Virus record (IMG/VR): IMGVR_UViG_3300027754_000447 | Coordinates: 1-23,503 of that record | From: a virus | DNA length: 23,503 bases | Direction: 5' to 3' (one strand) | Part shown: piece by piece, positions 8,277-21,730 of the stretch | Layout of the letters: each line of letters opens with the position of its first letter | Numbering within the stretch: the first letter of the stretch is position 1 | Made by a program: the position numbers and the translations under genes | The notes under the pieces: generated by a model | Told to the model about the DNA's origin: nothing | Seen by the model: only the letters and a program-made list of their open reading frames with translations | The model's database searches: none

Positions 8277-9355
8277 TACAATACTGTGTTATTTATATCG
8301 TATGCGTATTCAAAGTCTAATTGGTAGTTTATCATCTTCGTGTTTATCTGCTTGAACATCTCCATAGAATTCGTGGTTAGCTTCACAGGAGAGTTGTTTA
8401 AAAGGATTCTCTCGCTCATCATTAACTGCCTAATCACTTCCGAATAGCTATCGTCTCGCCAATCAGAATTAACTTGTATCGTCTCTAACATTACTGAGTT
8501 GAAAACTTTACGCTGCCCCTCTAATACATCGTAGTTGTGTAAATTATCCTGCATTAAGTTGTAAGTAGTGTTCGTTTTAGACACCGTGTTTTTAGATGCC
8601 TTAAAGAAAAACTCACGTTGCCATCCACCATACTTATTAATAAAGTCTATAACTACAGGTGTGTACCTACATTCTACGATAGGTCTAAATGTAGCTTCCC
8701 ATAAAACGTTATTAGAAGCATCTAAAATCTGCATTACATTTCCATTGTCGTAGTAGTTAGTATAAACTCTGTAGCTTGTTATAACGCCGCTACTCGGTAT
8801 AGTTCCGTTCACAATACTACCTGTGTTTAATTCGATGTACTTTACCTTCTGCCCTGCCGTAGCGTTCCACGTTACACTTCCTGCTCTTTTTAATGTATCA
8901 GTAGAAAGAACCGCAGCGGAATCGTATTCAAATTGATACGTTGCCTCATCTAAAAGTATATTACCTAAATCTGGGTTCGTTCCTTCCGTATAATATCCAA
9001 AGCCATCGAATACCTTGTATGTAGTACTATCAATTAAAACAAAAGACGAAGTGATTTTTTTATACCTATCTACCTTAACATTACACCATTCATAACTTCC
9101 TAAACTCGTGTTTATGGAGTTGTAGTTATTCCCAAAAGATTGGTGTTCAATATATTCTTTTAAATAAGGCGAAATATTATACAGAGTCTCTATGTCTGTA
9201 GCAGATGGAATTAACTTACTCAATGTATAAGTAGGTGATGCAGGTGCTGAACCTGTGCCATTCCAAATAAATAAATTTACTTTCGTTTCTACTTGTCCTG
9301 TTTCATTTATTCTCACAATAAAAGGAGAACGTGCAAAGATTCTATTATCAGCCAT
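8276..9355 (-). CDS. Tail structural protein
   Basis: 359 aa. It begins MADNRIFARSPFIVRINETG and has ISPYLKEYIEHQSFG near residues 62-76, a pattern shared by tail proteins of Bacteroidetes phages that pair with the large protein encoded next. Composition is beta-rich with many Tyr, Asn and Thr; there is no signal peptide or membrane segment. The C-terminal part (about 255-359, FFFKASKNTVSKTNTTYNLM and on) looks like a second domain. It overlaps the upstream gp10-like gene by 8 bp and the downstream gene by 1 bp. A baseplate or tail-tip component is likely from order; exact position in the tail is unknown. Confidence 0.6.
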   Translation of the reverse strand: MADNRIFARSPFIVRINETGQVETKVNLFIWNGTGSAPASPTYTLSKLIPSATDIETLYNISPYLKEYIEHQSFGNNYNSINTSLGSYEWCNVKVDRYKKITSSFVLIDSTTYKVFDGFGYYTEGTNPDLGNILLDEATYQFEYDSAAVLSTDTLKRAGSVTWNATAGQKVKYIELNTGSIVNGTIPSSGVITSYRVYTNYYDNGNVMQILDASNNVLWEATFRPIVECRYTPVVIDFINKYGGWQREFFFKASKNTVSKTNTTYNLMQDNLHNYDVLEGQRKVFNSVMLETIQVNSDWRDDSYSEVIRQLMMSERILLNNSPVKLTTNSMEMFKQINTKMINYQLDFEYAYDINNTVL

Positions 9356-19480: not shown

Positions 19481-19930
19481 TTAAATTATATGATATTTTT
19501 CTTTAGCGTTTAAATAGGCTTGTTTTGCTTCTTGTTCGGTATCAAAATAACCTAAGTTTATTTCTTTCCAATTTAAATATATTTTTGCTCTAAATTTGCC
19601 TTCACGCTTATTAAAATAATAGCCTTTAGCAGTTTTTCTATTCCATTGGTTTTGTTGTCGTGTAACGCTTCTAAGGTTAATTATTCTATTGTCATCACGA
19701 ACTCCGTTAATATGGTCTAACTCCTCAACTAATTCATTAAAGCATAACCACCAAGCGTATTGATGAGCAAATAAGTTTTCATTTTTTTCTCCTACTCGTA
19801 AATTAATAGCTACATATCCTTTATGCCTACGTGTTATTTCTTTACCTTTTATTCCGTAAATCTTACCTGTATTCACATCGTACTTATAACCGCTTTCTTT
19901 TGCGTACTTGCATTTTTCTTCTCGTGTCAT
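19481..19930 (-). CDS. HNH homing endonuclease with AP2-like C-terminal domain
   Basis: 149 aa from the ATG at 19930, whose ATGA overlaps the exonuclease stop; an upstream in-frame ATG at 19966 would lie inside the exonuclease gene. The HNH core is LFAHQYAWWLCFNELV (H56) followed by ELDHINGVRDDNRIINLRSV (D72, H73, N81, N85). From about 103 to 145 (KGYYFNKREGKFRAKIYLNW, then LGYFDTEQEAKQAYLNAK) there is an AP2-type DNA-binding domain, common in phage HNH homing enzymes. It cuts specific DNA to promote its own spread. It stands directly after the exonuclease gene without disrupting it. Confidence 0.85.
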   Translation of the reverse strand: MTREEKCKYAKESGYKYDVNTGKIYGIKGKEITRRHKGYVAINLRVGEKNENLFAHQYAWWLCFNELVEELDHINGVRDDNRIINLRSVTRQQNQWNRKTAKGYYFNKREGKFRAKIYLNWKEINLGYFDTEQEAKQAYLNAKEKYHII

Positions 19931-20610
19931 AGTATAGATTTTAATTGCTCGTAGTAGTTTCTGCAAAGTTCTACCTTCTCTTTAATCTGTTCAATAGCTT
20001 GTTCGTCTCTTTCTACGATAAATCTTTTAATTCGTAGGTTGTTAGGAATGTGGTCGAACGTGTGTTGAGATTGTACCGCTTCACGCAAATCTAAATCCTC
20101 ATCTATTAATCCTGCTTTCCAATGCGCTCTACGTACCTCATCTTCTACTATTTGATGTGGTGTATTCATTAAGCAGTAAATTAATTCGGCTTTATCTAAT
20201 CCTGTAAGCATCATATAACCTTGCATCTGCCAAAAATAATCTTTATTCTTTAACTCGGTATCGAATAACGGAAAAGTTGAACCATCCCAAGAGCATTTTA
20301 TATCCGCAAGTAAGTCTTTTGTAATTACATCGGGTTCTCCTGTGAGCCATTCATTATTATATCGCTCCGTGTTTTTAACTACAAACTCCCATCCTAAAAA
20401 CTGACCTGCAAACTCTATTGCCTCATCTTCCATCTGAAGACCTTTATCTGTGTATCTGCTCCAAAACTCTTTAGCTATTCCTAATTCCTTTTCTTTAAAG
20501 TAATCTTGAATATAAGTCTTTGCCGTTTCAGATAGAACCTCTCCCTTTGTTCTGGGAGAAGTTAGCAATTTACCAAGAGCAGAACATCTGAATTTTATAT
20601 TGTTATCCAT
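19927..20610 (-). CDS. YqaJ/lambda-exonuclease-like recombination nuclease
   Basis: 227 aa. It begins IKFRCSALGKLLTSPRTKGE, then DKGLQMEDEAIEFAGQFLGW with conserved Glu residues (61, 63). The PD-(D/E)XK core is LTGEPDVITKDLLADIKCSW (D94, then D103-I-K105). YFWQMQGYMMLTGLDKAELI supplies the conserved Gln and Tyr. This is the YqaJ-type alkaline exonuclease family. Together with the ERF protein upstream it forms a Red-like pair: the exonuclease resects double-stranded ends and the annealing protein pairs the strands. HNH genes flank it on both sides. Confidence 0.85.
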   Translation of the reverse strand: MDNNIKFRCSALGKLLTSPRTKGEVLSETAKTYIQDYFKEKELGIAKEFWSRYTDKGLQMEDEAIEFAGQFLGWEFVVKNTERYNNEWLTGEPDVITKDLLADIKCSWDGSTFPLFDTELKNKDYFWQMQGYMMLTGLDKAELIYCLMNTPHQIVEDEVRRAHWKAGLIDEDLDLREAVQSQHTFDHIPNNLRIKRFIVERDEQAIEQIKEKVELCRNYYEQLKSIL

Positions 20611-21079
20611 TTTTTATATTTTTTAATTTAAAATTTCTTTCTGTGATTGCTTCATCAAGTGAACTGTAATATCCAATGTGTTTTCCATCTACTATTAATC
20701 TATATTTATTTCTTATTTTATAAATATTAGGAGTATTAGTATTACTTCTATTTCCTCTTGTAATGTTTTCTCTATGAGATAAAATTCTTAAATTATTTAA
20801 ATTATTATTTGATTTATTATTATCTATATGGTCAACTACTATTATACCTTTATTTACTTTATAATCTAAAAATGCTTCTGCAACTATAATATGAATATAT
20901 TTAGTTATTTTTTTATTATTGCATAATAGAATTTTTAAATAACCTTTACCATTATTTGCTCCGTTTAAAATTTTATCATTTTTAACAGTTCCATTTCTTT
21001 GTAAAGATTTAACTCTACCAAAATTTGATACTTCATATAGTCCTTCATAGCCGACTACTGGCTTCCATTGCTCTTGCAT
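20603..21079 (-). CDS. NUMOD4-HNH homing endonuclease
   Basis: 158 aa. The N-terminus EQWKPVVGYEGLYEVSNFGR VKSL is a classic NUMOD4 motif (residues 3-26, spaced here). The HNH core is YIHIIVAEAF (H63) followed by VVDHIDNNKSNNNLNNLRIL (D83, H84, N87, N95), then SHRENITRG. The C-terminal PNIYKIRNKYRLIVDGKHIG YYSS is a small DNA-binding repeat like those in other HNH homing enzymes. Base composition is clearly more AT-rich than the flanking recombination genes, a sign of recent arrival. Its stop overlaps the exonuclease start by 8 bp, so it may be co-translated. Confidence 0.9.
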   Translation of the reverse strand: MQEQWKPVVGYEGLYEVSNFGRVKSLQRNGTVKNDKILNGANNGKGYLKILLCNNKKITKYIHIIVAEAFLDYKVNKGIIVVDHIDNNKSNNNLNNLRILSHRENITRGNRSNTNTPNIYKIRNKYRLIVDGKHIGYYSSLDEAITERNFKLKNIKNG

Positions 21080-21084
21080 ATTTT

Positions 21085-21175
21085 TGCAGTTAAATTAGTG
21101 CAGTTAAAAAGAAACGTGGAAGGTGTAACTGCTTCACTTTTCAAACGGCTAATTACCTCCGTTCTATCCACGTTT
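21085..21175 (-). ncRNA. Structured leader before the NUMOD4-HNH gene
   Basis: A perfect 9-bp inverted repeat (AAACGTGGA at 21175-21167 with TCCACGTTT at 21120-21112 on the minus strand) encloses a 5-bp hairpin AACGG/CCGTT (21163-21159 with 21148-21144). CTTTTT follows the outer stem, so it looks terminator-like. GCAGTTA in the big loop (21132-21126) can also pair with TAACTGC, present twice downstream (10-bp direct repeats TGCAGTTAAA on plus at 21085 and 21099). This is about 90 nt just upstream of the HNH ATG. Attenuator or small RNA is inferred. Confidence 0.5.
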
Positions 21176-21176
21176 A

Positions 21177-21184
21177 CAAATATA
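21177..21184 (-). promoter_or_regulatory. Possible promoter -7 box before the HNH leader
   Basis: TATATTTG on the minus strand, followed by TAAACG. TTG elements at 21202-21200 and 21199-21197 give spacers of 15 and 12 bp, short for a Bacteroidetes promoter. It lies inside the short gap after the ERF stop. Confidence 0.4.
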
Positions 21185-21190
21185 CAAAAA

Positions 21191-21730
21191 TTATAACAAC
21201 AACATTGCCTTAGTTTGTAACTCAGTTAATTCATATCCTTTCAAAGCATTCTTAAATTGCTCAGTAGTTAATTCTCCATTTGATACTTTAGTAAGTCCCG
21301 ATTCAAAACGCTCCTGAGGAAATAATTTACTTACCGCTTCTCGTGCCGTGTTCCCATCGTCATCCACCGCCTGTAAACTTAAAAGCGTTTGTAAACTTCC
21401 TCTTCGGTAGTAAGTAATCGAAGCAATTAATTTCTGTGGGTCTGTAATCATTGGAAGAACTAAACTGCTTTCTATCTTATCTCCGTTATCTATGTCTATT
21501 ATCTGAGTGCACACTTTGCCATCTAAGATTGGTTGTAAGAGTATTAATCCGTGTTTTAATAGGATTGGTTCAGTAGCTTCTAAAATAGCGTTTAAATCAG
21601 CGTATTTTGATTTAAAGAAAGGATTGTTACTTCCTTTAGTAACTTTACCTATCTCTTGCTTTGCTTTCCATAGCTTAGTGTAGATAGTTTCGCTTTTCGG
21701 TAGAACGTCTACCACTTCTTCTTTTTTCAT
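21191..21730 (-). CDS. erf: ERF-family single-strand annealing recombinase
   Basis: 179 aa. The ERF core is SNNPFFKSKYADLNAILEAT (residues 34-53) with EPILLKHGLILLQPI, then SSLVLPMITDPQKLIASITY and YRRGSLQTLLSLQAVDDDGN (about 85-127). This matches the ERF/Sak-like family, in which the central part binds DNA and the SITYYRRYxLxxLLxLxxxDDDGN motif is diagnostic. The protein anneals complementary single strands, working with the exonuclease two genes downstream. The C-terminal helix region (ELTTEQFKNALKGYELTELQ) may bind SSB or partners. It has its own candidate promoter at 21755. Confidence 0.9.
   Translation of the reverse strand: MKKEEVVDVLPKSETIYTKLWKAKQEIGKVTKGSNNPFFKSKYADLNAILEATEPILLKHGLILLQPILDGKVCTQIIDIDNGDKIESSLVLPMITDPQKLIASITYYRRGSLQTLLSLQAVDDDGNTAREAVSKLFPQERFESGLTKVSNGELTTEQFKNALKGYELTELQTKAMLLL

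Follow-up and report, generated by a model that had tools for sequence, protein, structure and literature searches.

A conserved three-way-junction leader RNA that is probably an on/off switch for phage homing endonuclease genes

The leader that precedes a homing endonuclease gene in a viral genome fragment is, judged by the compensatory changes found across divergent members, a conserved structured RNA, and it probably serves selfish genes as an on/off switch of a kind not yet described. The window, by which we mean the whole 23.5-kb IMG/VR virus record analysed here (23,503 nucleotides), carries phage structural and replication genes on its minus strand, and the leader RNA corresponds to the minus strand of positions 21077-21178, between the genes for an ERF-family annealing protein and a NUMOD4+HNH_3 endonuclease. 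We consider it fairly likely that the leader acts in cis on translation of the homing endonuclease, with one downstream word (R1) as a decoy, a second (R2) at the ribosome site and a trigger bound at the junction.

The ERF-family gene (21191-21730) is the upstream neighbour of the leader, which in the proposed reading controls the NUMOD4+HNH_3 gene (20603-21079, minus strand; Pfam E-values of 1.1e-12 and 1.4e-9; HNH endonuclease in PHROG). This is followed by a putative exonuclease gene (19927-20610), assigned from sequence with no Pfam hit. In several relatives (L004, L005, L008, L009, L018 and L021) the ERF stop and the exonuclease start overlap as ATGA, and promoter, leader and HNH gene are jointly missing; likewise, phage P12002S lacks all three at the site where P12002L carries them. 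Since they are absent together in both comparisons, promoter, leader and gene constitute one inserted cassette (20610-21190, minus strand), which bears out an earlier suggestion, made in a sequence-only reading of this DNA, that the leader travels with its gene. Free-standing homing endonucleases are marked by an HNH or GIY-YIG domain, insertion between phage genes and an empty site in relatives, and by its domain, its insertion and its empty site the window gene is one of them. Other, unrelated open frames start from the same ERF stop codon in four close relatives (L010, L013, L014 and L016; window junction at about 20610-21193), and the ERF/exonuclease junction is thus a recurrent insertion place.

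Read 5' to 3' on the minus strand, the leader starts with the 5' strand of the closing stem P1 (AAACGUGGA, 21167-21175), followed by junction J1/2 (21164-21166), a UAG conserved in the alignment and in distant members. Next stands hairpin P2, whose strands AACGG (21159-21163) and CCGUU (21144-21148) enclose loop L2 (AGGUAAUUAG, 21149-21158), with a UAAUU core kept in most copies. Junction J2/3 (21140-21143) lies in a UGAAA region conserved in the alignment, reading YGAAA in distant members, and leads into hairpin P3 (21135-21139 and 21121-21125) with its loop L3 (AAGCAGUUA, 21126-21134). The 3' strand of P1 (UCCACGUUU, 21112-21120) abuts P3 directly. All three stems are delimited by covariation, and P1 additionally by the 9-bp perfect inverted repeat (21112-21120/21167-21175) that the sequence-only reading had correctly noticed; it had described one enclosed hairpin, and there are two. 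Downstream of P1 follow two copies of UAACUGC, R1 (21100-21106), the first partner of L3 and proposed decoy, and R2 (21086-21092), the second partner and proposed ribosome-site target, which ends 6 nt before the start codon and covers -13 to -7. They belong to a longer word, TTTAACTGC, present twice on the minus strand of the leader (21086-21094 and 21100-21108), with a third window copy elsewhere, on the other strand and within the span of a capsid-like gene; three copies per window were reached by no shuffle. The last seven bases of L3 (GCAGTTA, 21126-21132) are complementary to both leader copies, as had been noticed from the letters.

Taken singly, the window leader folds unremarkably, with a z-score of -1.2 and 25 of 200 shuffles equally good, and the unconstrained minimum-energy fold of the window RNA differs from the comparative three-way junction. 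Hence, the case for structure was made by comparison. Relatives were collected by an exact 16-base search of viral contigs and a search of named phages, which matched Polaribacter phage P12002L; other loci were fetched via the ERF and HNH proteins and with further degenerate patterns, and copies were confirmed by a covariance model. These pattern and covariance-model searches of phage records yielded 54 distinct leader RNAs, which were aligned. Among 34 leader-bearing records, 33 carry a single leader and L188 carries two. More distant candidates comprise five pattern matches (L296 to L300, of which L296 and L299 have one shared leader), returned by a viral-scan pattern with one extra base between P2 and GAAA, and a faecal phage fragment, L301. 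The covariance model gave E-values of 0.0008 for L298, 0.008 for L297 and 0.027 for L300, and the recognition of L296, L299 and L301 drew on their structure and neighbouring genes rather than on a model score; together, L296 to L301 look like more distant members of the group. The L296 to L300 contigs have 46-59% G+C.

When phages that have been isolated or deposited were searched, the leader was found only in Polaribacter phage P12002L and in the faecal phage fragment MT836429. A scan of cellular genomes returned 19 pattern matches, none of them a covariance-model match; a search of 296 relatives of a single flavobacterial genome, run without a positive control, gave no match; and a descriptor scan of the regions upstream of GIY-YIG genes in named phages found no new member. 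As the sequence-only reading would require, the stem is present in relatives carrying the HNH gene (L017 and L086). Across 80 fetched HNH relatives a leader was detectable at five loci only (L098, L100, L101, L103 and L121), about a dozen near-duplicates standing outside the model search. Given that a minority of NUMOD4-HNH relatives carry it, the leader is an accessory of the gene and not a fixture.

The shared fold, in which P1 closes a three-way junction with P2 and P3, is strongly supported by covariation, the check that the sequence-only reading had proposed. In the 54-leader set the covariation score was 0.589, against 0.193 for shuffled and at most 0.098 for slid controls, 92.7% of the cells were paired, and 17 of the 19 pairs exhibited both-sided change; both-sided changes persisted in 17 of 19 pairs after dereplication to below 75% identity (n = 13). 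A 33-leader set behaved similarly (94% of cells pairing; covariation 0.45 versus 0.17 shuffled and at most 0.09 slid). RNAalifold found P1, P2 and P3 unaided, and energy folding of the distant L296, L297, L298, L300 and L301 gave the same junction. The conserved unpaired parts are the UAG at the P1/P2 joint, the UAAUU core of most L2 loops and the (Y)GAAA at the P2/P3 joint. Among non-standard pairs, G.U outnumbers A.C by 25 to 5 in the stems (a count that omits the two outermost P1 pairs and one P3 position where the two occur about equally often), by 3 to 0 in R1 and by 18 to 1 in R2, and this excess indicates that the minus strand pairs as RNA. As a separate observation, the middle of L2 (21149-21158 in the window) is self-complementary in the majority of types (AAUU, GAUC, AGCU), so that loop kissing could produce dimers, on types too few to judge.

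In all 54 leaders, two words that follow P1 are complementary to L3, and this complementarity is kept across about a dozen unrelated loop sequences. The core L3 words include GCAGUUA, GCGUUUA, GUGUUUA, UACAGUUA and GCGUUAA; the second L188 leader has a GUCUGUGUU type, L260 has UCCAACA and L271 has AACUCC, and distant phages have CACCUUA, AGUCUUG, UUCGUUAC and UCCCUAG. In every word class, R1 and R2 are both altered to match. The second L188 copy, L260, L272 and L265 were found by patterns that excluded L3, have altered or unrelated loop letters and still hold both complementary words; L296 to L298 and L300, found in the same manner, have two complementary words with shuffle P values of 0 to 0.009, and L271 gave P = 0.012. 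Since several copies were thus found with patterns excluding both L3 and the repeats, the match is not a selection effect. The two leaders of L188 (2779-2882, minus strand, and 9001-9102, plus strand) have completely different L3 words, as if cross-pairing were avoided.

Mean pairing energies are -8.3 kcal/mol for L3:R1 and -7.9 kcal/mol for L3:R2, within 0.3 of each other in 25 leaders; in L271 and L297, R2 forms a short helix of 4-5 bp. Because one L3 cannot pair with both words, the two pairings are mutually exclusive. The common form consists of two A residues and then a 7-bp helix continuing directly from P3, a geometry that would suit an H-type pseudoknot. Dimer formation or a function in RNA stability might likewise account for the near-equal strength of R1 and R2. 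A pairing of L2 with the R1-R2 spacer, judged by eye, was dropped, as it displayed no covariation (L191, L103).

The main argument for translational control is the position of R2, which lies at the ribosome site in two styles of translation. Its end is mostly 6-9 bases from the start codon (6 nt in the window, 7-9 nt in L296, L297, L298 and L300). Outside the main group, R2 overlaps a Shine-Dalgarno-like sequence in four of five members, namely GAGG in L298, AGGGAG in L300, AAGGTGG in L296 and GGAGG in L271, whose contig also has Shine-Dalgarno words before its other genes. Flavobacterium mRNAs do without Shine-Dalgarno sites, and initiation there needs A at -3, -6, -12 and -13 together with low pairing (PMC6847099); the window R2 covers -13 to -7. 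The sequestering leaders known from T4 are marked by a segment that can pair immediately upstream of the start codon, and such a segment, L3 with its complement R2, was found in 54 of 54 leaders and in L296, L297, L298 and L300. From this position of R2 we infer that the leader affects translation, and we consider that it works like a ribosome-site-sequestering leader, claiming no membership in a named RNA family.

By comparison, the leader folds as a three-way junction whose L3 can form a pseudoknot with either R1 or R2. In the mechanism that we propose, pairing with R1 would leave the ribosome site open and pairing with R2, just before the start codon, would hide it, although this assignment of ON and OFF is a guess. 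R1 may accordingly serve as a decoy by which the switch stays poised. The outcome may be decided by a factor, metabolite or partner that binds to the conserved UAG and GAAA joints and the UAAUU loop. As a unit, promoter, leader and gene move in one cassette. A plausible purpose is the timing of a DNA-cutting enzyme during infection, given that in T4 RNA structures covering the ribosome sites of homing endonucleases delay these enzymes (PMC2988022). More tentatively, and with appreciable doubt, the leader might represent a widespread and hitherto undescribed class of sensing RNA, taken up by selfish homing genes from several nuclease families, in phages whose hosts belong to different groups, in which a junction receptor and a bistable platform of one loop and two targets read an infection signal (a metabolite, ion or protein) and decide nuclease timing.

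The leader has its own promoter, as the sequence-only reading had held. A Bacteroidota -7 box (TATATTTG, 21177-21184, minus strand; consensus TAnnTTTG), contained in TATATTTGTA at 21175-21184, stands at its edge. The box alone is weak evidence, since TANNTTTGTA occurs 7 times in the window versus 3.7 expected; all 52 scored copies nevertheless have a TAnnTTTG-type box at a distance of 5-8 nt upstream of the P1 core, in a scan that tolerated A at the seventh or last base. In L296, L297 and L301 the corresponding position is occupied by TATAAT. In F. johnsoniae transcription starts 4-5 nt after the box (PMC6847099), and the predicted start in the window falls within the 5' arm of P1, at about 21171-21172. 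Up to six outer P1 pairs lie upstream of the predicted start, and L3 and R2 lie within every transcript; in most copies (21175-21184 in the window) the longer P1 would form only in read-through transcripts.

As to what might trigger the switch, a phage or host protein, such as a ribosomal protein or the endonuclease itself, might sit on the junction and trap or free the ribosome site, which amounts to the favoured explanation with a protein trigger; we regard this as possible but rather doubtful. A junction of three stems that places a pseudoknot on the ribosome site would resemble ribosomal-protein leaders. I-TevI of T4 represses its own gene, though at the DNA level (PMC2988022). The endonuclease is an unlikely ligand, however, because leaders up to 97-99% identical precede endonucleases that are 23-31% identical or belong to other families. 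The same explanation with a metabolite trigger, a riboswitch with a small molecule or ion as junction ligand (a nucleotide changing in infection, for instance) and the choice made by L3 as expression platform, appears unlikely, although conserved unpaired joints and loop amid freely varying stems are typical of aptamers and two near-equal alternative pairings suit a switch; folding or protein binding could account for the conserved joints just as well, and the controlled genes, nearly all endonucleases, suggest no metabolite.

Transcriptional control is much harder to sustain. The sequence-only reading had placed a T-tract terminator before the HNH gene, and an attenuator of this type, with P1 and the U-tract as intrinsic terminator, L3:R as antiterminator and the gene transcribed conditionally, would draw on the U-rich stretch that follows P1 in the window and in most Flavobacterium-type copies. 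That stretch is broken in L179, L188, L191 and L197, with complementarity of L3 to R1 and R2 kept. L296, L297, L300 and the second L188 copy lack it altogether, again with L3:R complementarity kept. Furthermore, P1 encloses a branched junction instead of a short hairpin, a terminator scan did not report the site, and a G+C-rich stem with a directly following U-run is not conserved, all of which makes attenuation very improbable. Conditional expression of the selfish gene, the wider idea behind that claim, stays plausible, and position and conservation favour translation over termination as its route.

Even less credit can be given to a self-cleaving ribozyme or a trans-acting small RNA, trimming the mRNA or released from it. 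A compact pseudoknotted junction with conserved joints and no Rfam match would agree with either; a promoter at the 5' edge of the leader, however, leaves little to gain from 5' trimming, and the hammerhead core CUGAUGA is absent. A trans-acting role via the repeat word was rejected, as the only further window copy is antisense within the span of the capsid-like gene. We give almost no credence to a DNA-level element, in which the three word copies (one inverted, two direct), lying beside a promoter and the gene of a DNA-binding protein, would be operators or nuclease sites with the RNA incidental, since the strong stem covariation and the one-strand G.U bias reject an operator, and the same word precedes unrelated endonucleases and different words stand elsewhere.

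Most of what is known about the control of free-standing homing endonucleases in phages comes from T4, each case being differently built. The T4-kind leaders (I-TevI, I-TevII, I-TevIII, segB and mobE of Aeh1) resemble the present one in having an RNA structure by the start codon of a phage homing endonuclease, a promoter near the stem and a presumed delay or limit on the nuclease (PMC2988022). They hold their genes back by direct sequestration of the ribosome site, escaped by late transcripts that lack part of the stem (PMC2988022), whereas the present leader is a branched junction, kept across many unrelated endonucleases and phages, whose loop has two exclusive partners. Translational riboswitches such as the preQ1 classes and ribosomal-protein leaders such as that of rpsO would share the proposed output, a pseudoknot from loop to ribosome site; unlike them, this leader has no Rfam match, holds two tandem words complementary to one loop and travels with selfish genes. 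HEARO/omega RNA and TnpB-associated reRNA, the guides of mobile nucleases, are likewise structured RNAs adjoining a mobile HNH or other nuclease gene, yet they accompany IscB or TnpB and not small HNH or GIY-YIG homing endonucleases. With Rfam 15, the window gave no match at gathering score, the leader region yielding chance-level hits only at relaxed thresholds, and eight other leader loci gave no match at E <= 1. A literature search of incomplete coverage found no description of the leader.

Most of the leaders precede NUMOD4-HNH genes. Others stand before HNH-AP2 genes (L005, L020 and L298), an endonuclease-VII-like protein (L083), GIY-YIG genes (L199, L271, L296, L297 and L300) and a larger HNH type (L260), the gene assignments of L296 to L300 being read from sequence. 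Among the 53 pairs of leaders at least 90% identical, the proteins are less than 35% identical in 27, and the window leader is 97% identical to that of L005 before proteins that are 23% identical. The window holds a second HNH gene, of AP2 type (19481-19930), placed directly after the exonuclease with an ATGA overlap and lacking a leader; its L005 relative, 55% identical, has one. In L005 and L020 the leader of this relative scarcely differs from the one before the first HNH gene of the window. These near-identical leaders before dissimilar proteins, together with the presence of a leader in only one of the two related HNH-AP2 genes, indicate that the leader has been exchanged between unrelated endonuclease genes. 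If true, a shared, exchangeable RNA switch before HNH, GIY-YIG and other endonucleases would be a common timing device of selfish nucleases, and a ligand bound by the junction would be a signal of phage infection. It would also constitute a new RNA architecture, with one loop bound to stay complementary to two targets, and for this reason its switching rule is directly testable by compensatory mutation.

Two further observations concern other sites. A leader in L253 (9898-9997, minus strand) has a changed P1 core (GAGUC/GACUC) and precedes a gene of unknown function, phrog_21613, no known endonuclease. In the window, positions 1-60 of the minus strand carry, downstream of the capsid-like gene, a GGGUGG/CCACCC stem and then seven consecutive U, which looks like an ordinary terminator.
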